A DNA stretch of 64,000 nt from Ruminococcus flavefaciens. Its GTDB lineage: Bacteria; Bacillota; Clostridia; Oscillospirales; Ruminococcaceae. Of the stretch, positions 16,187-36,550 are shown piece by piece. Position 1 is the stretch's first letter, and each line of letters begins with the position of its first letter. Made by a program: the position numbers and the translations under genes. The DNA lies in assembly GCA_023667045.1 (NCBI GenBank), contig JAMPAU010000001.1, positions 434,159-498,158 of the forward strand, in the 5' to 3' direction. The notes under the pieces were generated by a model. It was not told the DNA's origin and ran no database searches. It saw only the letters and a list, made by a program, of their open reading frames with translations.

Positions 16187-16200
16187 AATCATTCTCCAAA

Positions 16201-17733
16201 TCAGTTTTCAATAATAAATGTATACTTCTCTCCGTTTATAAAAAGCGAACAGCCCGAAAAGATTTCTGTTTTCATGCCTATATTTATATTCACGTTTTCA
16301 AGTTTAAGAGAATAGCAGGCGGTATTTTCCATAAAGAGTGCCATTCTGCCATTAAAACTCTCCATAGAGAACACTACACCGTAAATAGAATCATCAGTAA
16401 AGGGATATTTCATTACTCTGAGAGTGCTATTGTCAGAAACTTTTCTTATATATGCCAACGCTCTTGTTTCCGGAGACTGTCCCACTATAAAAGTATGCTG
16501 TACAGGAGCAGGTTGCTGTACTATAACTGTATGCTGTTGTACAGGCTTTGGCTTTTTCACCAGATGAAAAGTATAACAGGTGCGATAAAAATAAAGCCTG
16601 TCTCCGTCATTAATCTGCACACTCGTCTGAATCCTCTTATTGAAGTTTTCATTAATAAAAGTGCCGTTTGAGTTTGACCAGTTAACAAGATAATATAGAT
16701 TGTATTCTTTCTTTATTTCTGCATGATTACCTGAAATGGTCATATCGTTTATAACAAGGGATTTGGGTGGTTCTCTGCCTATAGTAAAAGGAAATTCTTC
16801 AATATATATTTTTTTGCCGTCGGGTGCGATGAGATATGCGTCAAACATTTCATTTGAAGAAACATTGCTTGACGGTTCTTCATCGGGTACAATATCATCT
16901 TCTCTGGGAGGAACATACGTACCGCCTTTATAAACCGGCTGTGATTCTGGAGCTGGCGGAGGTTTCGGAGTGTCTGCCGTTTTTTCGGCGGGTTGTACTG
17001 TTTCAAACTGTCCTAAAGGATTAGTAGTTTCTGTATGGGGTTTGACAGGCTGTGAATTATTATTATCTATCTGTCGGTTTATGTCGAATTTCGAATCATT
17101 TACATATACAATATTGCTTGGATTTTTCGGCATCTGTCGGTGTTCCTGTACAGACTTCTGAGTTTCGTTTTCATTAAAGAAATGCTGAAGTGCGTCCGGC
17201 GAAAAAGTCTGAGCCTTTGATTTTTTGCCTTGAAAGCGACTGAGATATTCTTCATATTTGCCCATATAATTACCGTCTTTTATAATAATATCCTTTGCAC
17301 TTTTATGTAATTTCAAGAGACATTCCGGAATATCCATACTTACTGCTTTAGGAGACTGCATAGGCAGAAAAGCCATAAGTATTTTCTTATCCGCATTATC
17401 ATAATACATATATTTAGGGTCACATATAAGATTCTCAAAGGGCAGGCTTGCCGATTTGCAGAAAGAAGCGATTTTCTGAATGCCGGCGATTATTTCAAAA
17501 TACTGCTCCTGCTCCATTCTTGTTTTTATATATTCAGATAATGAAGTAAGTCCGCTTATATCAAAGCTTATTTTTGTTGTAGTGCCGTTTTTGGTACACA
17601 TAGGAATAATAAAATATTCCTTATATATTTCATTTTTAAACATATCAAGCTGTGCATAGCTTATTTTATCTCGTCTGCCAAGAGTACATATAAGATAAGT
17701 ATTATTTCCCGAACAATGAGTGCGGAATCCCAT
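16201..17733 (-). CDS. FHA-domain protein with DUF6382-like N-terminus, first gene of T7SS operon
   Basis: This 510-aa cytoplasmic protein has an N-terminal domain (about 1-180) of the type found with FHA domains in Clostridia (DUF6382-like; it recalls the pseudokinase fold of EssB, though that is a loose comparison). A Pro/Gln-rich linker (about 180-295) leads to an FHA domain (about 310-395) with the phosphothreonine-binding signature FTIGREPPKS, SGNHAEI and NSNGTFIN. A short beta-rich C-terminal domain ends the protein. FHA domains read threonine phosphorylation, so it is the probable reader for the neighbouring kinase. AGGAGG lies eight bases before the ATG, and a TTGATT-17-TATAAT promoter lies upstream, making this the first gene of a transcript of at least ten genes. 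Confidence 0.82.
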   Translation of the reverse strand: MGFRTHCSGNNTYLICTLGRRDKISYAQLDMFKNEIYKEYFIIPMCTKNGTTTKISFDISGLTSLSEYIKTRMEQEQYFEIIAGIQKIASFCKSASLPFENLICDPKYMYYDNADKKILMAFLPMQSPKAVSMDIPECLLKLHKSAKDIIIKDGNYMGKYEEYLSRFQGKKSKAQTFSPDALQHFFNENETQKSVQEHRQMPKNPSNIVYVNDSKFDINRQIDNNNSQPVKPHTETTNPLGQFETVQPAEKTADTPKPPPAPESQPVYKGGTYVPPREDDIVPDEEPSSNVSSNEMFDAYLIAPDGKKIYIEEFPFTIGREPPKSLVINDMTISGNHAEIKKEYNLYYLVNWSNSNGTFINENFNKRIQTSVQINDGDRLYFYRTCYTFHLVKKPKPVQQHTVIVQQPAPVQHTFIVGQSPETRALAYIRKVSDNSTLRVMKYPFTDDSIYGVVFSMESFNGRMALFMENTACYSLKLENVNINIGMKTEIFSGCSLFINGEKYTFIIEN

Positions 17734-19141: not shown

Positions 19142-19480
19142 ATGATACTTAATTACAGACAAATCGGCAAAAATCTTGCAAGACGGCGTAAGGAGCTGAG
19201 ACTTAAACAGTTTGAGGTCTGTGAGCGTGCCGGAATCAATGACAAATACCTTTCCTGCATTGAGACTGCACGCTCTATACCAAGCCTTGAAGTATTCATG
19301 AAACTCTGTTCTGCTCTTGAAACAACTCCCGACCGTATTCTTCTGGGTGCTGTCCGCCAAACAAACTACTCGGAAGAAGATACGACCCTGCTGGAAAAAT
19401 TCAAAAATCTTTCTCCAGACAATAAACGCCTGTGCCTTGCATTCATGAACCTGCTTTCTGATGATTTTCAGAATACATAA
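19142..19480 (+). CDS. XRE-family helix-turn-helix regulator
   Basis: A 112-aa DNA-binding protein with one N-terminal HTH_3 domain (about 4-60: IGKNLARRRKELRLKQFEVCERAGINDKYLS..E). The recognition helix is around NDKYLSCIETARS. The C-terminal 45 residues are helical and may serve for dimerisation. The start at 19142 has GAGGTG six bases upstream; a GTG at 19133 overlaps that site. It is the only plus-strand gene for many kilobases and is convergent with the ABC-F gene, sharing its terminator. Its target is unknown. A copy of the 36-bp intergenic element lies 30 bp downstream. Confidence 0.88.
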   Translation: MILNYRQIGKNLARRRKELRLKQFEVCERAGINDKYLSCIETARSIPSLEVFMKLCSALETTPDRILLGAVRQTNYSEEDTTLLEKFKNLSPDNKRLCLAFMNLLSDDFQNT

Positions 19481-19510
19481 GTCCATGTTTTTATTATACT
19501 CATAATATCA

Positions 19511-19546
19511 GACATACGGCTGTCCGTTCAAAAAAAATTTACAATT
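19511..19546 (+). repeat. 36-bp intergenic element, copy 1
   Basis: GACATACGGCTGTC followed by CGTTC, an A-run and ATTTACAATT. It aligns without gaps to copies at 31861 and 36593. The first 14 bp form an imperfect palindrome here (perfect in copy 2). A terminator stem follows directly. Confidence 0.88.
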
Positions 19547-19554
19547 GAACATAA

Positions 19555-19592
19555 AAAATCCGCTGTCAAAAATAACTCACAGCGGATTTTTA
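19555..19592. terminator. Bidirectional terminator between XRE and ABC-F genes
   Basis: ATCCGCTGT and ACAGCGGAT form a stem with a 12-base loop and are flanked by A-runs on one side and T-runs on the other. It can end both convergent transcripts. Confidence 0.85.
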
Positions 19593-19613
19593 ATTATCAT
19601 TTTATAAAATTAT

Positions 19614-21407
19614 TCAGACCATTTCGCCGTTGCTGATTCTTTCGGCAAGTTCATTTAGATATACCCACCTGTCCATTTTTTCTGCAAGCTGATTTTCTAA
19701 ATTTTCTTTCTCATCGGATAATTCCTGCAATCTTACATAATCAGAAGAACAGGCAGTTATTTCATTCTCGACTGCCTTTATCTTTTCTTCAAGAGCTGAA
19801 ATATCATCGTCAATAGTTTCAAATTCCCTTTGCTCCTTAAAAGAAAATTTAAGTTTTTTCTTTCCTGTGAAAATCCTTTCTTTTTTAGCGGACTGTTTCT
19901 TTTCCTTTGCCGGAGCTTCAGAAAACTGCTGTGCTTTTTCGGCATAGTCGCTGTAATTTCCGTTGTAGCGGTTAATATTTCCGTCGCCTTTGAGTTCCCA
20001 TATTTCAGAGGATATTTTATCAAGAAAATACCTGTCATGAGACACGGCAATAACAGCACCGTCGAAATTATCCAGATAGTCTTCAAGAATTGTGAGAGTA
20101 GCAATATCAAGGTCGTTGGTCGGCTCATCAAGCAGAAGAATATTAGGGGCGGTCATAAGGACTTTCAGAAGATAAAGTCTTTTTCTTTCACCGCCGGAAA
20201 GTTTTTCTATTCTGTTCCACTGAAGTTCGGGAGTAAACAGGAATCTTTCAAGCATTTTAGCGGCTGTAATAGTTCCGTCGGGAGTGCGTATATTTTCAGC
20301 CGTTTCTTTTATGTAGTCTATAACTTTCATGGATAAATCCATACTTTCGCATTCCTGAGAGAAGTAGCCTGTTCTGACAGTTTCGCCGACAGAAATTTCA
20401 CCGCTGTCTGCATTCAGTTCACCGTTTATAATTTTTATCAGCGTACTTTTTCCTGCTCCGTTATGCCCTACAATTCCTATTCTTGCGTTTCTTGGAATTA
20501 TACACGAAAAACCGCTGATAAGATTTTTACCGTCAATGCTTTTTGAGATGTTATCAAGTTCAACAGTTTTCTTTCCGAGCCGTGACGAAACAGACTGCAA
20601 CTGTAGCTTTTCTGTTTCAACGGGCTTTTCTCTGTTTTCAAGTTCATAAAATCTTTCAATTCTGTCCTTTGATTTGGTTCGGCGAGCCTCAGCACCACGC
20701 CTTATCCATTCAAGCTCCTTGCGGTACAGAGTACGGTTTTTGCGTTCTTTAGCTTCTGCATCGGCTTCACGCTGGGCTTTCTGTTCAAGGTACGTGCTGT
20801 AATTCCCGTCATATACGAAAATATTACCTCTGTCAACCTCAACTATCTTTTTGGTAATGCTGTTAAGAAAATACCTGTCGTGAGTTACCATAACTATCGC
20901 ACCACGATATTTTTTTAACTGCTGTTCAAGCAACTGTACGGTTTCATTGTCAATATGGTTTGTAGGCTCATCAAGCAAAAGAACGTCGCTCGGCTGTATC
21001 AGTGCAGCGGCAATACCCGCACGTCTTTTTTCACCGCCGGAGAGAGTACCTATATCCCTTGTGCAGTCTTCTATTCCAAGTTTTCCGAGAATAGCCTTTG
21101 CCTCAAATTCCTTTGATTCCTTTAGGTCTGCCGGAAGATGTTTCATAACCTGCTCAATTATACTGCCGTGTTCTTCAAACTCTGGTATCTGCGGAAGATA
21201 CGAAACCCTGAGACCGTTTGTGCGGACTACCTCACCGCTGTCGGATTCTTCTACACCTGCAAGAATTTTCAGAAGTGTAGACTTGCCAGTGCCGTTTATG
21301 CCTATAATTCCGACCTTATCGCCCTCGTTAAGAAAAAAAGACGCATTATTCAGAACTTTTCGCTCCATATATGTTTTTGAAATATTCTGTGCTGAAAGTA
21401 ATATCAT
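19614..21407 (-). CDS. ABC-F family ATPase (Uup/EttA-type translation factor)
   Basis: A 597-aa soluble protein with two ABC domains and no membrane segments. ABC1 has Walker A GINGTGKST, signature LSGGEKRR and Walker B VLLLDEPTNH; ABC2 has GHNGAGKST, LSGGERKR and ILLLDEPTND. A basic linker with coiled-coil character joins them (about 240-310), and a C-terminal coiled coil (about 520-590) resembles Uup. ABC-F proteins act on the ribosome, either as housekeeping factors or as antibiotic-protection factors; the Uup-like C-terminal coil suggests a housekeeping or branched-DNA/ribosome role. The start at 21407 follows GAGGAG by six bases; longer readings have no ribosome site. It has its own promoter. 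Confidence 0.92.
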   Translation of the reverse strand: MILLSAQNISKTYMERKVLNNASFFLNEGDKVGIIGINGTGKSTLLKILAGVEESDSGEVVRTNGLRVSYLPQIPEFEEHGSIIEQVMKHLPADLKESKEFEAKAILGKLGIEDCTRDIGTLSGGEKRRAGIAAALIQPSDVLLLDEPTNHIDNETVQLLEQQLKKYRGAIVMVTHDRYFLNSITKKIVEVDRGNIFVYDGNYSTYLEQKAQREADAEAKERKNRTLYRKELEWIRRGAEARRTKSKDRIERFYELENREKPVETEKLQLQSVSSRLGKKTVELDNISKSIDGKNLISGFSCIIPRNARIGIVGHNGAGKSTLIKIINGELNADSGEISVGETVRTGYFSQECESMDLSMKVIDYIKETAENIRTPDGTITAAKMLERFLFTPELQWNRIEKLSGGERKRLYLLKVLMTAPNILLLDEPTNDLDIATLTILEDYLDNFDGAVIAVSHDRYFLDKISSEIWELKGDGNINRYNGNYSDYAEKAQQFSEAPAKEKKQSAKKERIFTGKKKLKFSFKEQREFETIDDDISALEEKIKAVENEITACSSDYVRLQELSDEKENLENQLAEKMDRWVYLNELAERISNGEMV

Positions 21408-21542: not shown

Positions 21543-22532
21543 TCACAGCTTTATTGTGGATATATATTTTTGATTTCTGACTTCAACGAAGTTCAGTTCA
21601 ACAAGCTTTCTGATTTTTCTTTTCAGAAATTTCGGACGTATATAACAGATTTTAGCGGTCTCCTTTAAAGTCCTTTCCGTTTCCAGAGCTTCAAATATCC
21701 TGTCATACGATTTTATCTGACGGCAGATTGTCTCAGAATTTATATTCAGTTTAAGAAACTCAGCCTTTTCTGCCCTGTCCATATTTCTGTAGCACCTGCC
21801 GTGGTCGTTTCTTGAAATAACAATACTGCAATCGTCAGTTGTGGCATTGCGGATAATAGTATTGAAACTTTCCGTAAGCTGATTTTCCAGTAAGTCTGAA
21901 CGCATATAAACCATAAAATTCATGATACGGCTCAGTACTGGTGCAAGCCTGCTATCACGCTTACTGTAAAGGCTTGCTTCAGAACCGTCTGACATAAGCA
22001 CAAAACCGTCGATACTGCCGAGTTTACCCTTGATAAGTTTCATTGACTGAATAACATTTCCAGAAGTTGTGAATATGGTTGTATTGGCAAATTCGCCATT
22101 TTCCGGCTTTGAGGCTACTTTCAGTTCGCCGTCCCTCATATATCCGAGAACACCGTCACCGATATGACACAGTAAATAACGCTCGTCCTTTACGGCAGTA
22201 AAAAGCAGAGTAGAAGCAAGGTCACGGATTCCGCATTCATGTTCTTCTGCGAGTTCCGCAAGCTGACAGCGGATTTCTTCAATGAGACTTTTTTTGACTG
22301 CCACGCCGTCCGGATTTGAATAATAGTCATCAAAATTTTCAGTCAGAATATTGCATACATGGGCAGTAACTCTTTCTGCACCATAATGTGAAAACTTCGC
22401 TGAACCTGCACCGTCGGCAAGGGCTGTAGCTACAACTCCGTTCTTCTCGACAGAAAAAGTTTTGTCCTGACACGGAATGTCATTTGAAATATGACTGCGA
22501 CCCTGTACGGCACACTTAATGATATTCCACAT
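21543..22532 (-). CDS. PP2C-family phosphatase with C-terminal winged helix (TerY-P triad)
   Basis: A 329-aa PPM phosphatase of the divergent PPM_2 type. Visible motifs are CQDKTF near the N-terminus, the metal aspartate in ALADGAGSAKFSH, CHIGDGVLGYM, LMSDGSEAS and TTDDCSIVI. The C-terminal 75 residues form a helix-turn-helix-like segment (FEALETERTLKETAKICYIRPKF...KLVELNFVEV) that could bind DNA. In TerY-P systems a VWA protein, a PP2C phosphatase and a kinase with zinc ribbons are encoded together; this is the phosphatase member, last in the operon and 12 bp after the second VWA gene. It should reverse phosphorylation by the PIN-kinase. The HTH tail is inferred from pattern only. Confidence 0.85.
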   Translation of the reverse strand: MWNIIKCAVQGRSHISNDIPCQDKTFSVEKNGVVATALADGAGSAKFSHYGAERVTAHVCNILTENFDDYYSNPDGVAVKKSLIEEIRCQLAELAEEHECGIRDLASTLLFTAVKDERYLLCHIGDGVLGYMRDGELKVASKPENGEFANTTIFTTSGNVIQSMKLIKGKLGSIDGFVLMSDGSEASLYSKRDSRLAPVLSRIMNFMVYMRSDLLENQLTESFNTIIRNATTDDCSIVISRNDHGRCYRNMDRAEKAEFLKLNINSETICRQIKSYDRIFEALETERTLKETAKICYIRPKFLKRKIRKLVELNFVEVRNQKYISTIKL

Positions 22533-22544
22533 ATATATCTCCTT

Positions 22545-23321
22545 TTAATTATACAGATTGTCCCAGCCCTCTGCCCATACATCCGGAGAGTCAAGATTTA
22601 CTCTCTCACCTGGAACAGACTGTGAAGTTCTTGAAACGCTTTTGCCGAGCCATTCAAAAAACTCCTGAAATTTAAGTCCCTGAAGTTTAAGGGGCGAGCG
22701 TTTCGGAGATAAACTGCTCAATGCACTTTTATCTGCCTCGTTGCCTATACCTATAGCAAATACAGTGAGTTTTCTGTTGTTTGTCATTTCTGTTATTCTG
22801 TCAATGGCTCTTTGCATTTCAGCTGTTGAACCATTCGGCACTCCGTCAGACATGATAACAAGCCAAGGCTGATAGTAGTCAACGCCCTTATCCTTGTATT
22901 CCTGCTTACATTTTTCAAGAAGGTCAAGAGCAAGATTCACGCCCTCGCCCATTGCAGTAGAGCCTTGAGCGTCAAGTTTCGGCACTTCACCCTGACGTTC
23001 AATATTTGCAAAGTCAAGTATACACGATGCAGAATTATTGAAAGTAACGATACATATTTCTGCGGAATTTTTTGCCACGTCGTCTGCTTTTATTGCTTCA
23101 TAAAAAAGCTCAATGCCTTTCTGTAACTCATCAATGCGGGTTGTACCGCCGGTTACGACTTCCCATTCTCTGCCATCCTCGAATACAGTTTCACCAGTCG
23201 GCACACAGTTGCCCTCAACTGCACACATAGAACCGCTTGTATCAAGACAAAGACAAATCGGCACTCTTGTAGTGGGATTTTCTTCAAGGTCTTTTTCTCT
23301 GAATAATAAATAATTGTCCAT
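22545..23321 (-). CDS. TerY-like VWA protein (second copy)
   Basis: A 258-aa cytoplasmic von Willebrand A domain protein. The MIDAS metal site is complete: LDTSGSM (DxSxS), the threonine in GGTT/GSTAMGEG, and the aspartate in VIMSDGVPNGS. Compared with the neighbouring paralogue it carries an insertion of about 27 residues just after the MIDAS loop (about 33-60) with a pair of cysteines. TerY proteins are single VWA domains that work with a kinase and a PP2C phosphatase in the predicted tellurium/stress-type TerY-P module. The two VWA genes lie in tandem, 38 bp apart, and are clearly duplicates (shared DYYQPWLV, RKLTVF.IGIG, SQSVPGE/SQSIPGE blocks). Confidence 0.9.
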   Translation of the reverse strand: MDNYLLFREKDLEENPTTRVPICLCLDTSGSMCAVEGNCVPTGETVFEDGREWEVVTGGTTRIDELQKGIELFYEAIKADDVAKNSAEICIVTFNNSASCILDFANIERQGEVPKLDAQGSTAMGEGVNLALDLLEKCKQEYKDKGVDYYQPWLVIMSDGVPNGSTAEMQRAIDRITEMTNNRKLTVFAIGIGNEADKSALSSLSPKRSPLKLQGLKFQEFFEWLGKSVSRTSQSVPGERVNLDSPDVWAEGWDNLYN

Positions 23322-23359
23322 AATTTTACCTCCACAATCTAAAAATAATTAAAACGAAA

Positions 23360-24043
23360 TTACAGCTCTGCCCAGTCTTTCATGCCCTCAATATCAAGCT
23401 TTATAAACTCACCCGGTATGGACTGAGAAGTTGTCGAAACGCTTTTACTGAGCCATGAAAAGAACTTACTGAAATTAAGTCCTATAAGGTGTACGGGCTT
23501 ACGGTTAGGGGAAAACCTTTCAAGCACTTTCATATCTGCACCCGAACCGATTCCGATAGGAAAAACAGTCAGCTTTCTGCCCTTGACAAGTTCAACTGTT
23601 CTGTTGACTGCCCTGTTAAGTTCAGAAGAACTTCCGTTAGGTTCTCCGTCGGTCATGAGAACAAGCCAAGGCTGATAGTAGTCAACGCCCTTATCTCTGT
23701 ATTCGTTTTTTCTTTTTTCAAGCATATCGAGAGCCATGTTTACCGCCTCGCCCATAGGCGTACCGCCTGTTGCACTGAATGACGGGGGATTAGGCTGTAA
23801 TTCAAGGCTTGAAAAATCTGATTCACATTTTGCCTTTCCGCCGAATGTAACAACGCTTATTTCAGCGGAATACAGAGCCGTTTCATCGTCTTTTATAGCG
23901 TCGTAAAAAAGCTTAACGCCGTCATTGAGTTCTCTAATGGGACTTCCCTGCATAGAACCGCTTATATCAAGGCACAGACAAACCGGTACTCTGGGAGTAG
24001 GATTATTTATTAGGTCTTCCATTCTAATAAAATCATCAATCAT
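23360..24043 (-). CDS. TerY-like VWA protein (first copy)
   Basis: A 227-aa VWA domain with an intact MIDAS (LDISGSM, TGGTPMGEA, LMTDGEPNGS). It is closest to TerY of the TerY-P triad. It probably binds a phosphorylated or metal-dependent partner. The gene begins 18 bp after the kinase stop and is followed by its longer paralogue. Both share the C-terminal FSKFFSWLSKSVSTTSQS-type ending, which is typical of this family rather than of secreted VWA proteins. There is no signal peptide, so it acts in the cytoplasm. Confidence 0.9.
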   Translation of the reverse strand: MIDDFIRMEDLINNPTPRVPVCLCLDISGSMQGSPIRELNDGVKLFYDAIKDDETALYSAEISVVTFGGKAKCESDFSSLELQPNPPSFSATGGTPMGEAVNMALDMLEKRKNEYRDKGVDYYQPWLVLMTDGEPNGSSSELNRAVNRTVELVKGRKLTVFPIGIGSGADMKVLERFSPNRKPVHLIGLNFSKFFSWLSKSVSTTSQSIPGEFIKLDIEGMKDWAEL

Positions 24044-24061
24044 TATAATATCTCCTTTCTG

Positions 24062-26368
24062 TCAGTCAGAAAATTCAGACTGCATATATCTGACCATTTT
24101 TATATAAAGTTTTTTGCAGTTTTCATATTTTTCATTATAAATCATTTCAATGCATTGACTTATGTAGTCATTCCAGAGGATTTCACAGTATTCGCTGTAG
24201 CGTGGCGAATCCGTCATCTTTTCCACAATCTGAGGTGCATTGTCATAATACTCTGAAATAAGTTCTTTGCCGTCGGGCTGATTTATAAGCCAGTTGTCAC
24301 GGTAGTTTCTCATTGTCTGCATTTCCATGCAGTCGTCAGCAAGACCATAATACTCGCAGACGGCTGTAGTGATAAAACACCCGCCCTTGTTATTATTTCC
24401 GGACGTATTATTAGTACTATAAGTATTATATGTCGGAATACTTCTTGAAGACTTTCCGCTGTTGCCACGACAGTTTTTACATCTCTTAGGTATGTCAAGA
24501 CCTTTCTGTCTAAAGTAATCGTATTCTGAATTAGTAATTTCAAATCTTGTACCGCAGTCCACGCACCGACTTGAAGTATAAACTTCTTGTCTCCATTCAA
24601 AGCACTCCGGACAGTATTCATGTTTCTTAGAATGTGTTACATATTTCTGACGGTTTGTATATATTATTTTTTTACCGCACCTTGCACATTTATACTCATC
24701 GCCCTTTTTCAGACAGTCATTACAGTAGCCGTTTGTACTTCTTGATTCGTCAATTTCCTGTTTACACAGCTTACAGGTAATATATGTTGCTTTAGGATTT
24801 TTCTTGAAACGTGTCGGATATAGTTCTTCTGACATAGAATCCTGTTTTCCCATTGTGCCGTTGTCAAGCAGGTCAAGGTAGTATCTGAAATAAGCGAGCC
24901 ATGTTTTTACATCAAGACGGTTTTTTTCGGTTGAGTGTGCCTCGCCTTTCTTGAAAGTCGTATAAAAAGCCTCTTTAAGCTGATATGTAAGATGACTCCA
25001 CATGAAACGCCACGGACCGTCAGGGACTTTGCCGTTCTTTTTCTGACCGAAAGGATAAGAGAAGTCCATATTGATAATATTGGCGATAGGGTCTTCTCCG
25101 CCTTGCTGTGAATAGGGAGGCTTACCAGGGAGCATAATCATAAAAAGCAGAGTGGCAACGGCAAAGTTTTCATTGCCCATTGTTCTTAAAAATTCAGAAA
25201 AATGCCGTCTTTGTATTTCCGGTGCAGTAAAATTGACAGTACCGACAGGACACGGAAAATCTTCAATCTGGTAGCTGTCAGTATCAACAAAATATACTTC
25301 CTTTGTCGATACAACAAGAATGTTGGCAGGGTTTATATCGCCCATAATAATATTTCTGTCGTGCAGATAGTCTATTTTTTCAAGGATAGTGACGCATAAC
25401 TCAACAGTGTCACGTTTTTTCCATTTCGGGAAATTTTTCTGAAAAAGAGGTTTTATAAAGATACTTTTCTGCAATTCCTTGCCCTTTGCTGTGGGCATAA
25501 GAAAGCCTACAAACTGTTTCTGAGCGTTATATATTACATCAACCGGATAACACACGCCCTTACAGTCAATTTTCTTTGTAAGCATACGCATTATTTTTTC
25601 CTGCTTACGTCTTGTTATATTTTCTTTTTTATATATTTTTGCGACAAATGGCGTATTTGTTGAATAAATAACCGCCTCACCGCCTGCTCCGAGTTCCTTT
25701 GTAAGACGTATAGCACCGTGAGAAGTATACACGGTATCGTTTTCTTTAGGCAGAGAGGAAATATTAAGCCTGTCGTCCTTTATACTTGTAACATTTTTAC
25801 ATACTTTAAATTTTTCGTCTTCTGAAATATTTTCTGACTGTACATTATTCATTTCAGTACTGCGTGACGTATTTTTTACGCTGAAATCAGTAAGGCGACC
25901 GTCTTTTCCGATTTTTCTGACCTGAACCGGCTTAGCTTTTACTGACTTTATTGAATTGAGATTTTCAACATCTGATGCAAGTTTCTTATCTTGAGTAATA
26001 AGAAAAAGCTTATGATTCATTCTGTGTTTCATAAATACAGACAGAAAAACATTATCGGCGAAATTATCGCTTTTTTCCCCTCGCACCTCAATAAGACCGC
26101 CTTTCAGAAGTTTCTGAAGTGCTTTCAGACATTCTTCTGCCCGCTTTGAAAGAGAAGCGTTGCTTGCATTAACATAGTGTTTCTGTACTTCTTCAATACA
26201 ACGCATGGGGACAATGATTTTCTTCTGATATGTATGAAGCAAAGGAATGACATTCTGCCAAAATACAATCGACTGCGGTTCTAACAAACTGCACGTATCA
26301 ATAAAGATAATCTGCTCTTTTACAATCTTTTCCAACTCATGCTTATATGAATCATTTATTTCCGACAT
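24062..26368 (-). CDS. PIN domain - protein kinase - zinc ribbon - CFITTA fusion protein
   Basis: A 768-aa multidomain protein. Residues 1-150 are a PIN-like nuclease domain (IIFIDTCSLL with the first acidic residue, LFLITQDKKLA near the end). Residues about 215-480 are a kinase of the TerY-P type: glycine loop ELGAGGEAVIY, lysine in FVAKIYKK, catalytic loop IMGDINPANILV (HRD replaced by MGD) and FVDTDSYQI in place of DFG, a form typical of this kinase group. Residues about 535-650 hold several CxxC pairs (CKLCKQ, CNDCLKK, CARCGKK, CPECFE, CVDCGTR, CKNCRG), which should bind zinc. The C-terminus (about 660-768) is a CFITTA-type domain. It is the central signalling protein of the operon. PIN activity is not certain because the middle acidic residues are unclear. 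Confidence 0.88.
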   Translation of the reverse strand: MSEINDSYKHELEKIVKEQIIFIDTCSLLEPQSIVFWQNVIPLLHTYQKKIIVPMRCIEEVQKHYVNASNASLSKRAEECLKALQKLLKGGLIEVRGEKSDNFADNVFLSVFMKHRMNHKLFLITQDKKLASDVENLNSIKSVKAKPVQVRKIGKDGRLTDFSVKNTSRSTEMNNVQSENISEDEKFKVCKNVTSIKDDRLNISSLPKENDTVYTSHGAIRLTKELGAGGEAVIYSTNTPFVAKIYKKENITRRKQEKIMRMLTKKIDCKGVCYPVDVIYNAQKQFVGFLMPTAKGKELQKSIFIKPLFQKNFPKWKKRDTVELCVTILEKIDYLHDRNIIMGDINPANILVVSTKEVYFVDTDSYQIEDFPCPVGTVNFTAPEIQRRHFSEFLRTMGNENFAVATLLFMIMLPGKPPYSQQGGEDPIANIINMDFSYPFGQKKNGKVPDGPWRFMWSHLTYQLKEAFYTTFKKGEAHSTEKNRLDVKTWLAYFRYYLDLLDNGTMGKQDSMSEELYPTRFKKNPKATYITCKLCKQEIDESRSTNGYCNDCLKKGDEYKCARCGKKIIYTNRQKYVTHSKKHEYCPECFEWRQEVYTSSRCVDCGTRFEITNSEYDYFRQKGLDIPKRCKNCRGNSGKSSRSIPTYNTYSTNNTSGNNNKGGCFITTAVCEYYGLADDCMEMQTMRNYRDNWLINQPDGKELISEYYDNAPQIVEKMTDSPRYSEYCEILWNDYISQCIEMIYNEKYENCKKLYIKMVRYMQSEFSD

Positions 26369-26403
26369 TTTTCACACTCCTTAAAACATTATTTCTGCAT
26401 TTT

Positions 26404-26853
26404 TCAGTCATATTCTGCCAGACTTCCGTCTTCCGCTATCTTTGCTGTCTTTACACAATACATATCTGTAATATTTATATCTCTGATATTTTCCGCAAGC
26501 ATTATATCCTGTGTAATCAGAAGAAGATTACAATTCACGCACAATTTTTCAAACAACGACACAAAGGAAATATCTGAGGGTTTTATTTCCTTGTTGCCAA
26601 GCACTTCTATGAAACCGTCGCCAAGCAGTTCACGGAGCTTTTTCAGACAGTCCCCTGCACGCTGTGAAAAAGATTCATTTTTTCTGCTGTAATAAATTTT
26701 ACGCATTTCATCAATACAGCAGACAGGAACAATAACTTTTTTTCCGTACTTACTAAGAAAAGGAATGATATTTTCCCAGAATAAATCTGACTGAGAGTTA
26801 AGCAGACTGCACGTATCAATAAAAATGATGTAGTCTTTTACATAGTTTTCCAT
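26404..26853 (-). CDS. Stand-alone PIN-like nuclease domain protein
   Basis: A 149-aa protein that closely resembles the N-terminal 150 residues of the kinase encoded next to it: IIFIDTCSLL, FWENIIPFL, KKVIVPVCCIDEM, RAGDCLKKLREL and LLLITQD align one to one. PIN domains are metal-dependent RNases, often toxins. The first aspartate (IDTCS), an acidic residue after the central hydrophobic strand (CIDEM) and the late aspartate (TQD) are present. It has no antitoxin partner next to it, so regulation by the linked kinase or pairing with the kinase PIN domain is more likely than a simple toxin-antitoxin pair. Gaps are 35 bp downstream and 6 bp upstream. Confidence 0.82.
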   Translation of the reverse strand: MENYVKDYIIFIDTCSLLNSQSDLFWENIIPFLSKYGKKVIVPVCCIDEMRKIYYSRKNESFSQRAGDCLKKLRELLGDGFIEVLGNKEIKPSDISFVSLFEKLCVNCNLLLITQDIMLAENIRDINITDMYCVKTAKIAEDGSLAEYD

Positions 26854-26859
26854 AGATTA

Positions 26860-27693
26860 TCACCCTTTATTACTGGACTGCCAGTACTCCAAAGAATTTT
26901 TATCAGCATACAGGAAACTGATTTTTCTTTTAATATTGCGTATTCTTTTCTTTATATCGCTTGCAATAGTACTTTGATTTGTAACAAATACAATGTCTTT
27001 TCTTGATTTTTCTTTATTTTTATCCTTTACTTTTTCAAGAATACAGCACAAGGCACTGTTAAGGTCTTTATCTTCTTTTGTACCGCACGCACGCCATAAA
27101 CTCCGGTACTTATTCAGCATTTGCTTTTTTAATTTTGATTCGTCAGATTTATCATTATTGAGATTATTTACTTCAAAAAAACTTATAATCACAGGTTTAT
27201 TTTTAAGTATCTCCACAAGAGAACCAAACCACACAGAACTGCACATTTTACAGAAAGAATCAACAGTCATAACAACAATATTGTTGTTAAAAATATCTTC
27301 ATTAGCAATAACACTGCTCCTGCGTATATACATTCTGTAAGGAACACCGCATATCTTTAAACTGGAAAAAACAGCACCGGAAATATTATTAAATCCTATT
27401 TTCTGAGATATAAAACTTTTAAGTGCATTTTCCGTCCATGAAGTACCTACTGGAGAATGGATAATCTTATACGGAAAGTTAGTTTTTTCTGGGAGAATAA
27501 AAAGTAAATCTGCAATATCCATACTCTCACAGAAAGCAGTCTCTCTTGCCCATTTTTTCCAGAAATCAAGGTCGTTTGCCCTTAAAAAATTTTTGTCGTC
27601 AAAGATTACCCTGTCAAAAATATTATTGTTTCTTTTCAGAAAACAATGTATATTATTGTTTAGCTGAACAAATGCATATCTTAAATCCGGCAT
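26860..27693 (-). CDS. Hypothetical protein of the HerA-TerY-like operon
   Basis: I do not recognise this 277-aa protein. It is basic, AT-rich in sequence, and has alternating hydrophobic strands and helices suggesting an alpha/beta fold (IADLLFILPEK, NNIVVMTVDSF, NKPVIISFFEV, RKDIVFVTNQ), with no signal peptide or transmembrane helix. The pattern of strand ends recalls actin-like or RNase H-like ATPases (first strand AFVQLNNN, later GAVFSSLKICG), but the key acidic residues cannot be placed, so no function is given. It sits 2 bp after the hydrophobic protein gene and 6 bp before the PIN gene; coupling is tight, which makes it a core member of the system. Confidence 0.7.
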   Translation of the reverse strand: MPDLRYAFVQLNNNIHCFLKRNNNIFDRVIFDDKNFLRANDLDFWKKWARETAFCESMDIADLLFILPEKTNFPYKIIHSPVGTSWTENALKSFISQKIGFNNISGAVFSSLKICGVPYRMYIRRSSVIANEDIFNNNIVVMTVDSFCKMCSSVWFGSLVEILKNKPVIISFFEVNNLNNDKSDESKLKKQMLNKYRSLWRACGTKEDKDLNSALCCILEKVKDKNKEKSRKDIVFVTNQSTIASDIKKRIRNIKRKISFLYADKNSLEYWQSSNKG

Positions 27694-27695
27694 AA

Positions 27696-28466
27696 TCAGC
27701 CCTCATCAAAACTTAATTTCATATCAAAGAGTTTGTCGTCAACTTCACTTTCGGACATTTCAGGGTGTGCCAACGATATGCCCTCCGTTATAACCTCTCT
27801 CATTTCGTACTGTTCATCTTCGTCCAGTCCACCGGATAAATAAGCCCCCAACTGCACATCGTCCATACCGTGTTCATTTGCAGATTCAATAGTTGCATAT
27901 ACTTCCTTGCCATCCATATTGACTTTTTGTGCGTCAACATAAAATTCCGGTGAAATTTCCATGCCTGTCTTATCGGTGATAACCTTGTGCATAATACTGT
28001 TTCCTGCCAGTGAATAAGCAGCTTTTTCCTCATCTGTAAGCAGTTCAAGTTTCTGTGGGTCTTGCTGTACATCATTGTTAAGATAATTTAAATATGCCTC
28101 ATAGTCTTCAAAATCGTCCGGACCTTTAAGTGCAGACTCAGCACGCATACCAATATCAGCCGGCTCAATATCGCCTTCCATGCCACAGAGGGATTTTACA
28201 ACCGCCGAAATAAGACCGCCGACTACCTCTATAGTCTGGATAACCTCTGCTATCTCCACTATTGCGAGTTCCGGAAAAGCAATAGCCACTGCACCTGCTA
28301 TAGCCATACCAATCCCGCATATTTCAGGTCCGAAATCTTCCGCTACTTCCTTAAACTTATTTCCTAAGTTCTGAAAAAAACTCTTAATAGGAGATTCCGG
28401 AATTTTTGGAACAAATTTATCAAAGCTGAATGCATCGTTGCCGATACTGCTCGTTAAATCAAACAT
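27696..28466 (-). CDS. Hypothetical protein with Gly/Ala-rich hydrophobic hairpin
   Basis: A 256-aa acidic protein. After a polar N-terminus, residues about 45-95 form a glycine/alanine-rich hydrophobic stretch (ICGIGMAIAGAVAIAF, VVGGLISAVVKSLCG) broken by a short charged turn, as in membrane-inserting hairpins. The rest (about 100-256) is acidic and helical with no recognised domain. There is no signal peptide. Such a layout could be a membrane-active effector released when the system is triggered, or a bridging subunit; this is inference. It is encoded 22 bp after the HerA-like ATPase and 2 bp before the next gene. Confidence 0.7.
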   Translation of the reverse strand: MFDLTSSIGNDAFSFDKFVPKIPESPIKSFFQNLGNKFKEVAEDFGPEICGIGMAIAGAVAIAFPELAIVEIAEVIQTIEVVGGLISAVVKSLCGMEGDIEPADIGMRAESALKGPDDFEDYEAYLNYLNNDVQQDPQKLELLTDEEKAAYSLAGNSIMHKVITDKTGMEISPEFYVDAQKVNMDGKEVYATIESANEHGMDDVQLGAYLSGGLDEDEQYEMREVITEGISLAHPEMSESEVDDKLFDMKLSFDEG

Positions 28467-28488
28467 AATATTTATCCTCGCTTTCTGA

Positions 28489-31400
28489 TTATTTTTTACT
28501 TATATATCCCGACATTGCGTCAAAAACCTTGTCACATTTTCTTGTAAAGCTATTGAATATATCTTCCTCGCCGTCGTCAGTTTTTTTGCTATTTTTTCTG
28601 ATAATATCACTATCAGACGGCAGAGACATTATTTCATGGAGCAAAAAGGCTGTATTTTCTATAAAGCTTTTTCCGTTTTTAGCTTTTGTATCGTAAAAAG
28701 CACCAACAAGACGGAATGAAAAATAATTTGCACTTGATTCTATTCCGTATCGTCCGACAAATTTCTGAATTGCATTGATGTGTACAGCTTCTATTTTTTT
28801 CCCACCTTTGTTAAGTTCCAAGAAATGCACAAACGATTTCATTATCTGCCTGTGTATTGCATAAAATTCCTCAAATCTTTCAAGACTTACGTTCAAGAAC
28901 TGCATACCCGCAATAATTCCGGTATTTTTGCGTTTATAAAGATACTCGTTTGACATCTTGTGTATTTCTCCGGAAGTTACTTCGTTAGGAGATGTAGTGT
29001 CGCTAAGTTGAGCAATCTGTACTTGTACTGCGTTTTCATAGTTCTGTGAAAATACCACAGCACGACCTACTTCAAGAAAAGAAAGAAATTCCTTTTGCTT
29101 GTCATTGAGTGCCATTGTATTGCCGATTGCGTTTTTGTCGTCCTGAGCAAAAAGACGGTGTACTATTTTTGTGTTGGTATTTTTGAGGACTTCCGGTATC
29201 ATCTTGTCTGGTATCTGGTCGGCTATGATAAGAGATTCGCCGTACTTTCTTACTTCAGCGAGCATATCAGCGAATATCTCAGTACCGTGACGGCGGTTAG
29301 GGCTGTCACCCGGAGTGAACTTAGTAAGCAGTCTATGAGCTTCCTCAATAAGCGTGATGTGCATAAAGGACGGATTTTCCATATGTTCTGCTTTAAGAGC
29401 CTCATTCATATGCGACATGACAAGACCCATGACAAAGGCTTTTTCATCACCGCTTTTAATATCTTCAATTTCAAGAACTACTCTCATTTTCAGAAGTTCA
29501 TGGAAATTAACTGAACGTCTTGTATCAAGCATCTGACCTTTTGAGCCGATTGTAAGGCTTTGAAGTCTTGCCTTGATTGAGCCTATGTAATCTTTTTTCA
29601 GTCTGTCATCAAAACCCTGCTCAGAAACTACCTCATCAATAAGTGCGATAACTTCCGACAGTGTAGGAAAAGCAGTTGAATCTTCGGCGAAAGGGTCTTT
29701 GTTCTGAGCGTCATATTTTATGTTTCTGTTTGTTTCAATGTCCCAGCCGGCTTTTTCGTATGCCTTGTATATAGTAGCCTCTATAATCTGTGGAATAGCA
29801 GATTCCATATCAAAAGAAGCCTCAATGCTTGCCTTTACCATGTCAACGTGAGACGAAATAATTTCATGTCTGAAAAACTCAAAAGGATTCAGACGGAAAG
29901 GTGCTACCTGTTCATTGCCGAGCGTGAATATCACAAAGTCGTCGTAATTATTTCTTTGCATTATGCGGTATTCAGTCTTTGCTGGTTCAATAACCATAAA
30001 GGGCAGACCGCTCTGTATAAGGAGATTCTGACACGTGGTGGTTTTACCGCTGCCAGTAACTCCGGTAACAAAAATATGCTTGTTAAGTATATTTTTATTG
30101 AATGTAACCGGAATATTTTTCAGTTCAATGCCGGATTCGACAAGGTTTCCTATTTTAAATGAATCTGTTTCATCTCCGGAATCAAAATTAAGCCCGAAAT
30201 CCACTTCTTCCTTGAGAGATACGCCGTGTACTTCTTTCTGAGGAAGACCGACAATAAGGCTTAATTCGTTTGCAGAGTACCAGTTGCCCAGACGGCATTC
30301 ATGATTTTCAACGTTCTGAGAGAGTGCAGACCTTGTAAATTCTTCTGCTTTAGATGAGATGTCAATTCCGGAAATAACCGGTATCTGAAAATCAAGCAGA
30401 GCCTTGCATATGGGATTGCTGTTATTTACGTCAGTGTACTTCAAAGGCACACGGTTGCCCTCACTGCCAGAATACAGCGAAATAAAGGCATTTGAGAGTT
30501 TTCTAAGCTGACCTTTTCCGACCGTAAACATAAAAGAACAGCATGAAAAAAGACCCCGTCCCTTTCCGTAATCAAGACGTGGGAAAAGTACCTTGTCAAA
30601 ATATTCAATCCAGTCTTTCACCAGCTTGTTGTATTCTTCGCACGTTTCAGACTGACTTGTTGAATTATTAGTGCCTTTCTGCTCGGTAGCCGATTCAGAC
30701 GAACCATCAGAAAGATTTTTGGATTCCTGCTTGCTCTTGGAACTGCTTGTACCTGTCTGACGTGACTTGCTTGTACCCTTTGATTCGCCGTCAGTAGAGC
30801 TTCTGTCTTTTCCACTGCTTGACGTAGAAGACGAGTTAGTGCCTTCATTTGTGCCTATAGTATCGCTTGTGCTTTTTCCTTCCTGTATGGACGTGGAAAT
30901 ACTCGTGCCGGAGCTTTTATTAGAGCCTTTTGTAACAGATTTTGAGTAAGATTCGCCTTTGTTTTTTCCAACCTGTATAGAATGCTTTACACTGCCGGAC
31001 AAAGCTGTATAGAGCTTTTCGAGTTTTCTCTGAATAGTGAAAATTTCTTCCGGAGTATAGGCATTTGCAACAATCATAACGCCAAACTCATCACCGCACA
31101 TGACATCAACGAGACGGTCAACCGCCTGAAAAGCCTCTTTGTTTTCGTCAATACCTGGTACACCCTCAATAACACTGCACTCTGTCATTCGGAACATCTG
31201 CTTTCTGAGCATACGTGACTGCACAGGGTCTACTTTTTCAACTATACTGCCACGAAAATTTCCAACAATACTCTGTCTTAGAATCTGGTCGCCGACAGTA
31301 TTTATTGAGAGTTCACGCTTTTCTTCAATCTGATAAAGGTCACGTGAAACGCCGAAATAAAACTTTACTTCAGAGCCGTCGCTTAAAATCAGATAAATAA

Positions 31401-31623
31401 GGTTAGCACCCGAAATCCTCATTGAACTGATAACATTTTCAAGTGCTTCCTTTCTCGGTGCTTTTTCTTCAAAGGTAATGCGTTTTATCTGATAAAATAC
31501 TATATCCGAAATATTAAAATCTGAATATTTTTTGACATTGATTGCATTTTCGTCAACAAGATAATAATTGTTGAAATTTTTCAGAAAAGATTTTATCGTT
31601 TCAGAATAATTATTTAATTCCAT
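28489..31623 (-). CDS. HerA/FtsK-like DNA-pumping ATPase with Ser-rich insert
   Basis: A 1044-aa ATPase of the HerA/VirB4/FtsK group (DUF87-type), which forms hexameric rings that move DNA or protein. Walker A is GVTGSGKT at residues 521-528, Walker B is ITLIEEAHRLL around 755, followed by the typical RKYGESLIIADQIPDKM and KIVHRLFAQDD blocks. The N-terminal part (about 1-210) is unknown. Residues about 211-326 are a low-complexity Ser/Thr/Gly/Lys insertion that could be disordered or phosphorylated by the operon's kinase. No membrane helices are visible. The start at 31623 has GGAG six bases upstream; the ATG at 31635 overlaps that site. It is the first gene of the operon under a consensus promoter. 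Confidence 0.88.
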   Translation of the reverse strand: MELNNYSETIKSFLKNFNNYYLVDENAINVKKYSDFNISDIVFYQIKRITFEEKAPRKEALENVISSMRISGANLIYLILSDGSEVKFYFGVSRDLYQIEEKRELSINTVGDQILRQSIVGNFRGSIVEKVDPVQSRMLRKQMFRMTECSVIEGVPGIDENKEAFQAVDRLVDVMCGDEFGVMIVANAYTPEEIFTIQRKLEKLYTALSGSVKHSIQVGKNKGESYSKSVTKGSNKSSGTSISTSIQEGKSTSDTIGTNEGTNSSSTSSSGKDRSSTDGESKGTSKSRQTGTSSSKSKQESKNLSDGSSESATEQKGTNNSTSQSETCEEYNKLVKDWIEYFDKVLFPRLDYGKGRGLFSCCSFMFTVGKGQLRKLSNAFISLYSGSEGNRVPLKYTDVNNSNPICKALLDFQIPVISGIDISSKAEEFTRSALSQNVENHECRLGNWYSANELSLIVGLPQKEVHGVSLKEEVDFGLNFDSGDETDSFKIGNLVESGIELKNIPVTFNKNILNKHIFVTGVTGSGKTTTCQNLLIQSGLPFMVIEPAKTEYRIMQRNNYDDFVIFTLGNEQVAPFRLNPFEFFRHEIISSHVDMVKASIEASFDMESAIPQIIEATIYKAYEKAGWDIETNRNIKYDAQNKDPFAEDSTAFPTLSEVIALIDEVVSEQGFDDRLKKDYIGSIKARLQSLTIGSKGQMLDTRRSVNFHELLKMRVVLEIEDIKSGDEKAFVMGLVMSHMNEALKAEHMENPSFMHITLIEEAHRLLTKFTPGDSPNRRHGTEIFADMLAEVRKYGESLIIADQIPDKMIPEVLKNTNTKIVHRLFAQDDKNAIGNTMALNDKQKEFLSFLEVGRAVVFSQNYENAVQVQIAQLSDTTSPNEVTSGEIHKMSNEYLYKRKNTGIIAGMQFLNVSLERFEEFYAIHRQIMKSFVHFLELNKGGKKIEAVHINAIQKFVGRYGIESSANYFSFRLVGAFYDTKAKNGKSFIENTAFLLHEIMSLPSDSDIIRKNSKKTDDGEEDIFNSFTRKCDKVFDAMSGYISKK

Positions 31624-31658
31624 ATTCCACTCCATTCAATACGCTTTAATCGTTTTTT

Positions 31659-31687
31659 ATTATACATCAATATGTATATTTTGTCAA
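31659..31687 (-). promoter_or_regulatory. Consensus sigma-A promoter of the HerA-TerY-like operon
   Basis: Minus strand TTGACA (31687-31682), 17-bp spacer, TATAAT (31664-31659): a perfect consensus, 36 bp before the herA-like start. The spacer contains the inverted repeat TACATATTGATGTA, which could bind a repressor. Confidence 0.88.
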
Positions 31688-35232: not shown

Positions 35233-35772
35233 TTACGGCAGTCTATTCCGGCTGATAAAATCTGAAAACTGTGCAAAGACATTCTTTTCAAGCGAAGAAG
35301 TAAGAAACTTATTTCTTCTGTAAAGAATTTCCAGTCTTTCAGCTCTGATTCTGGCGGACGAAAGAGAGATATTGCATATTCCAGCTATGTCTTCAGCGGT
35401 ATGTAGATTAAGCCCCCAAAGAACGCAGGCAGGTGCTAATATACCTATGGCAAACCTCTCGGCTTCATATTCGCCTATATGATTGCCCATAAGAATATGC
35501 CCTATCTCATGTGCTATGCTATATCGCTGTACAGCCATTGAATCAGAATCATCAACAACAATGTACCATTTATTGCCGATAAGCATATTTTTGGCTCTTT
35601 CGCTGGTCATAAGCCTGTTTTCTGTGAGGAAGCTGTTCTTAACAATCGTTATGTTATAGTGCCGGCAGATTTGTGAAAGATTTACAGGAAGACTGCTGAC
35701 ACCGCATTCCAGAAGGCATTTCCAGCTTGAATTTCTGACATTTTTATAAATTTCATAAATCAAATTAATCAC
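35233..35772 (-). CDS. ImmA/IrrE-family metallopeptidase
   Basis: A 179-aa cytoplasmic zinc peptidase with the HExxH motif in AHEIGHILMGNH and the downstream glutamate in YEAERFAIGIL. ImmA/IrrE peptidases usually cleave an XRE repressor encoded next to them to switch on mobile elements or stress genes; here an XRE gene lies 107 bp upstream on the same strand. The C-terminal third (about 120-165) looks like a small helical HTH-like tail. The start is either the GTG at 35772 or a TTG at 35763, which has GAGGTG six bases before it. An inverted repeat (TCACCTCA...TGAGGTGA, 35769-35802) covers this start and could hide the ribosome site. Confidence 0.88.
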   Translation of the reverse strand: MINLIYEIYKNVRNSSWKCLLECGVSSLPVNLSQICRHYNITIVKNSFLTENRLMTSERAKNMLIGNKWYIVVDDSDSMAVQRYSIAHEIGHILMGNHIGEYEAERFAIGILAPACVLWGLNLHTAEDIAGICNISLSSARIRAERLEILYRRNKFLTSSLEKNVFAQFSDFISRNRLP

Positions 35773-35802
35773 CTCAAAAATAGTATATCAATTCTGAGGT
35801 GA
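35769..35802. promoter_or_regulatory. Inverted repeat over the ImmA ribosome site
   Basis: TCACCTCA (35769-35776) and TGAGGTGA (35795-35802) can pair with an 18-base loop. The left arm, read on the minus strand, contains the GAGGTG ribosome site, so the hairpin could limit translation of the peptidase. Confidence 0.5.
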
Positions 35803-35879
35803 TTGTCATATTGTCATTCTACTTCAAAAAACGAAGTATATTATTATATGGCAATACAAATATTATTTAACTTAAAATA

Positions 35880-36371
35880 TCAGTATTCGTCTGTATCGTC
35901 CGGAGCATTAAGAACGTCGCTGAAATCTCCGGTAACCATACGAGGAGGCGAATTATCAAAACTTCTCGCTGAGACACGGACAGTCTGAATATTTATATTA
36001 TTTTCCGGTCTGTTATTTTTCTGTAGGGCGGATTTTTCAAAGTCTGCCAGAGCGTCAGCCCTTTCTTTCAGCCTTGCCTTGCCTATATTGGAAAGACTGT
36101 TATAGACGGCGAGAAGTTCCCGCTCATCGTCAGCGAGCAAGGATACATCAACGCTGTCTTTATTGCCCGAAAAAAGCAGATTAAAGTCTATATTAAGGTA
36201 CTCTGCCAGTTTCAGCACTTTGTCGTATGACGGGGTTTTAAGCCGTCCTTTTTTCCAGTCGGTAAGAAAACTCGTGTTGATATTACAATTTATAAGACAT
36301 TGCTTTTCAGTCAAGCCTTTTCTTTGTATATACTTCAACAGAATTTCTAATATTTGATAGCTATTATTCAC
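35880..36371 (-). CDS. XRE-family regulator, partner of ImmA-like peptidase
   Basis: A 163-aa DNA-binding protein. The N-terminal domain (about 1-70) is a helix-turn-helix (QILEILLKYIQRKGLTEKQCL...NTSFLTDWKKGRLKTPSYD), and a helical C-terminal part (DDERELLAVYNSLSNIGKARL) resembles that of phage-type repressors. A disordered tail ends with DDTDEY. The GTG at 36371 is chosen because AAGGAG lies eight bases before it; the longer reading starting upstream lacks a ribosome site. The pair with the ImmA peptidase is typical of integrated element switches, although I see no integrase here. The third copy of the 36-bp element lies in the intergenic DNA upstream. Confidence 0.87.
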   Translation of the reverse strand: MNNSYQILEILLKYIQRKGLTEKQCLINCNINTSFLTDWKKGRLKTPSYDKVLKLAEYLNIDFNLLFSGNKDSVDVSLLADDERELLAVYNSLSNIGKARLKERADALADFEKSALQKNNRPENNINIQTVRVSARSFDNSPPRMVTGDFSDVLNAPDDTDEY

Positions 36372-36550
36372 AAAAAAATCTCCTTTTCCATAAGAATTTA
36401 ATATTGTTCTGTTAACTGATACTAAATTTCTTATCAAAATATTAACGGCAGTAATAAATGATGATATAAAATACCACATTATAATTTTACCACAAGTATA
36501 TCAAAAAGTAAACAGAAATGAGTGATTTTATGATACTCAGACAAAAAAAT

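Follow-up and report, generated by a model that had tools for sequence, protein, structure and literature searches.

An eight-gene operon of Ruminococcus flavefaciens joining a PIN-armed TerY-P module to a CoCoNuT-type HerA cassette, a putative conflict system

The DNA considered here, which we call the window, is a 64,000-nucleotide stretch of the Ruminococcus flavefaciens contig JAMPAU010000001.1 (positions 434,159 to 498,158), and our subject is an operon of eight genes within it that is best read, from homology, as the union of two modules that are mostly apart elsewhere. One module appears to be a TerY-P triad (VWA protein, PP2C phosphatase and Ser/Thr kinase) armed with PIN nuclease domains, and the other corresponds to a cassette, which we term HerA–hyd–p6N, known from Type III-A CoCoNuTs. 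As judged by the homologies set out below, what is new is the joining of the two in a locus that lacks the CoCoNuT core; no published account of a PIN-kinase TerY-P module joined to HerA was found in the open-licence PMC literature.

The operon and its products

The eight open reading frames (ORFs) all lie on the minus strand, running from 31635 down to 21543, and are separated, in operon order, by gaps of 22, 2, 6, 35, 18, 38 and 12 bp. Upstream of the first ATG, at 31635, is a sigma-70-type promoter on the same strand (TTGACA-17-TATAAT, 31687–31659) that matches the consensus at 12 of 12 positions. Of the 51 promoter-like sites in the stretch that was scanned it alone matched at every position; shuffled sequence gave a mean of 41.3 sites of any listed quality. 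On the 3' side of the last gene, which encodes the PP2C protein, is an intrinsic terminator (21532–21496, minus strand) consisting of a 16-bp hairpin and a short U run, with a folding energy of −23.9 kcal/mol (z −6.9) that was equalled in none of 200 shuffles. A scan for consensus terminators did not list this hairpin, in our opinion because the U run is short. The next gene downstream, which encodes an ABC-F protein, has a promoter-like site of its own (21487–21459, 10/12), and the operon therefore probably ends at the PP2C gene.

The genes between 26853 and 21543 constitute the first module. A stand-alone PIN protein (26404–26853) scores 25.0 against the PIN_12 model, below the Pfam cut-off of 32, but carries the D-E-D-D residues and aligns strongly (score 328) with a second PIN domain that is fused to the kinase. 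The fusion protein (24062–26368; 768 residues) was resolved by Pfam, NCBIfam and motifs into an N-terminal PIN domain (residues ~1–170; PIN_4 at 22.3, barely over the cut-off of 21.9), a Ser/Thr kinase domain (~220–500; Pkinase 2e-13, above cut-off), zinc knuckles (sub-cut-off) and a CFI-box (65.6 bits, cut-off 40); the PADLOC models that match the kinase are PD-T4-6 and mad6 (4.8e-7). Two TerY-like VWA proteins follow (23360–24043 and 22545–23321, the latter with an insert of ~26 residues), with matches over the Pfam cut-off at 4.2e-7 and 4.4e-12, and both retain the D-S-S, T and D residues of an intact MIDAS site. The last product (21543–22532) is a PP2C phosphatase (PP2C_2, 4.5e-47) with its metal motifs present and a weak C-terminal helix-turn-helix match (HTH_20, sub-cut-off). 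In a 16-row alignment of relatives, kinase residue K244 was retained in all 15 rows that cover it and D344, N349 and D362 in all 16, and PIN residues D24 and E60 were retained in 13 of 13 rows, D105 in 12 of 13 and D127 in 12 of 14. A TerY-like VWA, a PP2C and a Ser/Thr kinase with a C-terminal zinc motif are thus contiguous in the window, and by its domain matches this module is a PIN-armed variant of TerY-P.

The second module begins with a HerA/VirB4-like ATPase of 1048 residues (28489–31635), which matches DUF87 above the Pfam cut-off (4.3e-6), has its Walker motifs (Walker A at residue 525, LIEEAH at 762), and matches the PADLOC mad8 (1.4e-20) and HerA models; the NF033849 and CedD models were matched below cut-off. 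Translation may start at a second ATG, at 31623, just after a purine-rich stretch. Next is hyd (27696–28466), a protein predicted to be all-helical, with a hydrophobic N-terminal half (Kyte–Doolittle value of 2.09 over a 19-residue window) and an acidic C-terminal half.

The third member, p6 (26860–27693), has an N-terminal domain of ~130 residues (p6N) that is common to other HerA–hyd loci. The domain is 39.5% identical to a protein of locus L074 and is tied to that of L047 through L076 (L and G numbers are our labels for loci and genomes). Of 500 shuffles, none reached the scores of the pairs window–L074, L074–L076 and L047–L076; for weaker pairs the numbers were 1 (window–L076), 7 (window–L047), 11 (window–L048) and 9 (L074–L049), and others were weaker. 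A 224-residue protein of L001 was unrelated to p6N by such shuffles, which were used in place of profile iteration because the latter had drawn in a pentapeptide-like protein of L080 that we take to be a false hit. The C-terminal half of p6 is possibly, on a weak likeness, a degenerate PIN domain: of 1000 shuffles in each comparison, 40 reached its score with the fused PIN and 449 with the free one. The AlphaFold model of p6 was uninformative (predicted local distance difference test [pLDDT] 39.5).

These results bear out most of a preliminary description of the locus, which had listed eight tightly packed genes between one consensus promoter and one terminator, and among their products a TerY-P module, two VWA paralogues, a PIN–kinase fusion and a HerA-like ATPase. 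In keeping with that description, the active-site residues checked in the window are intact, the distribution of the genes is patchy and partly plasmid-borne, and homologues lie inside CoCoNuT restriction loci.

Distribution of the two modules and of their union

With the PIN-kinase as query, 17 kinase loci were read in total, the window included. Relatives were present in 4 loci of a species-representative collection (all read), in 6 of 398 genomes of the phylum (the window's own and five others, all read) and, diverged relatives counted, in 4 of 125 genomes of the genus (own and three others, all read); the own protein scored 1337 bits and the other three, diverged or partial, 433, 391 and 265 bits. 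Among plasmid records, 64 had a kinase match, which in 2 of them spanned 80% or more of the query, and 4 of the 64 were read. The order kinase, VWA, PP2C was seen in 15 of the 17 loci (window, L001–L004, L020, L021, L025, L042–L046, L085 and L086), which span several phyla and include plasmids of Lysinibacillus and Paenarthrobacter, among others; a Fusobacterium record is labelled a plasmid, yet measures 2.1 Mb. Because this order recurs across so many loci and on plasmids, the PIN-kinase triad is a real and widely travelled unit.

The unit varies in its details. PIN and kinase are separate ORFs in L003, the kinase of L004 and the PP2C of L001 are fragmented, and one side of L043, L045 and L086 ends at a contig end. 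Two VWAs were present in 2 of the 15 loci (window and L042) and a second PIN-bearing ORF in 5 (window, L020, L042, L046 and L085), which in L020 and L046 encodes an upstream helix-turn-helix–PIN protein (HTH_3 sub-cut-off in L020, by eye in L046). As for the remaining two loci, in L024 VWA comes first, PP2C second and a PIN-less kinase last; in L087 neither VWA nor PP2C accompanies what is left of a kinase. The viral collection held no kinase relative and two distant HerA relatives, phage records gave two HerA matches and one partial kinase match, and E. coli genomes gave no DNA match.

Other genes were noted beside two of the triads. In L001, from Anaerovibrio, an FtsZ-like protein (Tubulin and FtsZ_C matches) and a helix-turn-helix protein are encoded upstream of the PIN-kinase operon and a NERD-helicase protein downstream (7321–9415 and 19449–21119). 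The Fibrobacter triad of L003 (7384–16751) has upstream of it a sigma-54 activator with an RtcR-like look (N-terminal part, by eye); downstream come two large unknown proteins that look similar to each other.

The HerA gene adjoins hyd in 10 loci (window, L001, L022, L023, L047, L048, L049, L074, L076 and L111). The neighbourhoods read came from 2 of 92 HerA-matching plasmid records, all 7 other phylum genomes with HerA, 7 of 22 other genus genomes and one further genome; the distant HerAs of L050–L054 and L077–L081, which gave no hyd match, were left out of the count. The hyd of L023 was identified from its position and pattern before being included in the profile, and its own match is not independent. 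HerA–hyd occurs on plasmids of Photobacterium and Acinetobacter, and within the genus 3 of 125 genomes, the window's included, have a HerA above 1000 bits. A p6N-like protein follows hyd in the window, L074, L076, L047 and L111 (the last closely like that of L047, by eye).

Other partners of HerA–hyd change from locus to locus: a PIN-bearing TerY-P module in two (window and L001), a CoCoNuT core in two (L022 and L074), an Hsp70-like ATPase in four (L047, L048, L076 and L111), WYL (above cut-off), HEPN (sub-cut-off) and dynamin-family genes (from the record annotation) in L023, and a GTPase with a zinc motif (by eye) in L049. Genome G459, of the same genus (L074/L088), matches the window at 61.6% identity over 995 positions of HerA, 36.2% in hyd and 39.5% in p6N. 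Downstream of p6N it encodes a VWA, a shorter VWA-like protein, PP2C, kinase and an AAA_11/AAA_12 helicase, followed by a 712-residue protein, a 903-residue coiled-coil P-loop protein and one of 1290 residues that matches DUF2357 below cut-off. Five of these proteins pair one-to-one with those of the Photobacterium plasmid locus (445, 37, 455, 137 and 133 bits), where DUF2357 is above cut-off. Both loci fit the third of the published extensions of Type III-A CoCoNuTs (PMC11090510), the CoCoNuT label being our own.

The Hsp70/actin-like ATPase, of ~960–1090 residues, lies beside HerA–hyd at L047 (5713–12705, split over two ORFs), L048 (1436–13182), L076 (4375–11657) and L111 (11107–18371), with the motifs GIDFGTKST and DFGGGTTDFDFG, and with HerA–hyd it apparently forms a separate system that lacks TerY-P and the CoCoNuT core. 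No match to it was found in Pfam (two proteins scanned) or by phmmer; a three-row profile recovered 18 chains, each with a name of the Hsp70/DnaK type (best E 0.016), and the Hsp70-like label is on this basis probable. Three other HerA neighbourhoods were recorded: L049 (1375–9440), in which HerA–hyd and the zinc-motif GTPase lie with hexapeptide-repeat, Cys-rich and radical-SAM-like proteins (labels by eye); L113 (2992–11314), an IMG/VR viral contig where successive genes encode an EF-Tu-like GTPase, an Hsp70-like-motif protein (by eye), a distant HerA and a protein of 277 residues; and L054 (8104–10815), on contig 101 of the window's own genome, where another HerA, distant but of the same superfamily, has a different neighbourhood.

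The two modules adjoin each other in 2 of the 17 kinase loci, the window and L001. Both of these loci are co-oriented and tightly packed, but HerA comes first in the window and the triad first in L001, and the exact eight-gene order was seen in the window only. In a tree of HerA proteins the window's was sister to that of the CoCoNuT-linked G459 locus (100/100), and a clade of the window and L001 HerAs was rejected by the approximately unbiased (AU) test (p 3.6e-10), the pair having been set by gene content, with the test run after the first tree was seen and with several rows long-branched. From the fact that the HerAs of the two loci are not sisters we infer that partners have been exchanged; either the union arose or was re-formed on more than one occasion, or an ancient one was split up repeatedly, with exchange in both cases. 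The kinase tree was too poorly resolved to bear on this point. The eight genes had previously been taken for one complete system, a view that these counts, orders and trees do not support in the form in which it was put: the halves are usually apart, and the full set is rarely found together, while each half recurs.

Might the halves, then, be two independent defence modules that share only a promoter, with HerA–hyd–p6 and PIN-TerY-P each working alone and in no mechanical or regulatory contact? Most loci read have one half without the other, their union is rare, and G353 holds both ~54 kb apart, as such independence would predict. It would account less well for a union that has been made with non-sister HerAs, for the packing and common orientation of both union loci, and for the Type III-A CoCoNuTs, which again tie the HerA cassette to duplicated VWAs and a TerY-P triad (excerpts of PMC11090510). 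We regard independence as unlikely and favour a joint function.

Known systems and a possible mode of action

The preliminary description knew of no named system with such a gene order, but a similar one has been published: the EccE3–HerA extension of Type III-A CoCoNuTs, which excerpts of PMC11090510, the source of all that we say here of CoCoNuTs, describe as combining HerA, a small helical protein, duplicated VWAs and TerY-P. The likeness extends to an FtsK/HerA-superfamily ATPase with a variable insert, to the adjoining of the small helical protein and to the TerY-P triad; by homology to the L074 and L022 loci, the window has the HerA-plus-small-helical-protein arrangement with duplicated VWAs. 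The EccE3-like fold of the extension ATPase is likewise taken from that source. The operon differs in having no CnuB GTPase, CnuC/DUF2357, CnuH or CnuE (none of the CnuB, DUF2357 CnuC(D), CnuH and CnuE families was matched in Pfam by the eight proteins), in a kinase that bears PIN and CFI-box, in an extra PIN gene, and in tandem VWAs that both retain the MIDAS threonine, which is missing from the internal CoCoNuT VWA.

A TerY-P module was active against T7-like phages (excerpts of PMC7699616, reporting Gao 2020). In Helicobacter pylori a genomic island carries a TerY-P triad, which one strain has together with an FtsK-type ATPase; its company there is WXG/FtsK, an McrC N-terminal domain and a helicase (excerpts of PMC4978471) rather than the HerA–hyd and PINs of the window. 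The operon resembles the TerY-P triad in encoding VWA, PP2C and a Ser/Thr kinase with C-terminal zinc motifs together, and departs from it in the N-terminal PIN fusion, the second PIN, the CFI-box tail and the HerA–hyd–p6 genes upstream. MADS systems combine a methyltransferase with kinase and HerA-like genes. The window kinase and ATPase score to mad6 and mad8, but no methyltransferase was matched in Pfam by the eight proteins. HerA is also partnered by SIR2 or DUF4297 in defence, and neither family was matched in Pfam by the operon's products.

On balance, and by a modest preference, we take the operon to be a recombined conflict system, most likely directed against phages or plasmids and assembled from two mobile modules. 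Rings of the HerA family translocate DNA or power nuclease complexes. We propose that HerA of the operon would form such a ring, with hyd and p6 as its anchors in the inner membrane, and would there engage invading DNA, or an invader protein. The VWAs, through their metal-dependent MIDAS sites, could dock the kinase and phosphatase onto the HerA complex. In the healthy cell PP2C would keep the kinase silent; engagement of an invader would tip the balance to phosphorylation and license the paired PINs to cut RNA, whereupon growth would stop. The HerA module would thus sense or seize and the TerY-P module decide, with the PIN pair as an output in place of the CoCoNuT effectors.

Besides the rarity of the union, several observations weigh against the reading just given. 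The PADLOC TerY model was matched by the first VWA at an E value of only 0.0019 and not by the second. In some related PINs an acidic residue has been replaced: D105 by V in L085, and D127 by N in one of the copies of L042 and in the truncated L086 row. As to the operon's accessory status, its G+C content was unremarkable and gave no signal. The ABC-F gene beside it is present in 52 of 125 genomes of the genus; 11 of the other 51 were examined on the side where the operon would lie (some for less than 3 kb), and none has operon genes there, which speaks for the reading as part of the patchy distribution. Their neighbours differed, and no clean empty site was found. Finally, HerA has a Ser/Thr-rich insert (residues ~218–345, 40% S+T), which we considered as a kinase substrate and dropped as specific evidence: HerAs with equally rich inserts (29–45%) occur at six loci where the stretch read holds no TerY-P kinase, and the insert is for that reason no evidence of cross-talk.

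A response to metal, tellurite or DNA damage, rather than to invaders, is the least probable of the accounts considered. TerY-P has been proposed to be a metal-sensing, DNA-processing stress module (Anantharaman 2012, as cited in excerpts of PMC11090510 and PMC4978471), but conflict agrees better with the patchy distribution, the carriage on plasmids and the location inside restriction-like loci, and a Pfam scan of the operon proteins and 20 flank proteins found no ter gene.

The part played by hyd is a separate question. In nine members of the family, the window's included, the N-terminal part is hydrophobic and mostly Gly/Ala/Ser-rich (maximum 19-residue hydropathy 1.59–2.21) and the C-terminal part helical and acidic; a search of plasmid records with hyd gave no match. 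The membrane-inserting hairpin proposed earlier for this protein is plausible on hydropathy, but AlphaFold models that region poorly (mean pLDDT 53.5), only the C-terminal helices of the two sequences modelled reaching 71–84, and Foldseek returned no match at E ≤ 0.001. Such a protein, the constant neighbour of this HerA while other partners change, could be the real effector, forming pores or disrupting membranes when threaded or inserted by HerA on a signal from the kinase, with the PINs secondary. We rate this as improbable: AlphaFold gave no confident structure for the hydrophobic half, and no immunity gene was recognised.

Phage tape-measure profiles were matched weakly by 3 of 5 hyd members tested (best E 8.5e-4), the window and L111 proteins being the two without a match; 0 of 9 hyd shuffles matched a tape-measure profile, and one matched another profile at 0.016. 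We treat these matches as a lead only. They raise the idea, which we rate as very improbable, that HerA–hyd(–p6N) is a portable, membrane-anchored counter-injection engine: hyd would mimic the membrane-spanning part of tape-measure proteins, a VirB4/HerA-type ring would be set on the incoming DNA channel, and whichever decision module is attached (PIN-TerY-P, CoCoNuT, Hsp70-like ATPase or WYL/dynamin/HEPN) would then arrest or kill the cell.

These findings suggest that the HerA cassette, known until now as an extension of CoCoNuTs, is a free-standing module that works with other partners too, and that TerY-P has a widespread PIN-armed form with a candidate RNase output built into the kinase. 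In so compact an operon the substrates of TerY-P phosphorylation can be sought directly, and the changes of partner offer a way to ask what HerA–hyd does.

Genes flanking the operon

The direct neighbours of the operon are the ABC-F gene and, upstream, a pectin lyase gene. The next two genes beyond the pectin lyase gene (35233–36479) encode an M78/ImmA-IrrE-like peptidase (capP model, 1.7e-9) and a helix-turn-helix protein. Some 2–4 kb beyond the ABC-F gene, at 13728–17733, is a second, unrelated kinase gene (Pkinase 3.2e-30) near one for an FHA/DUF6382 protein.

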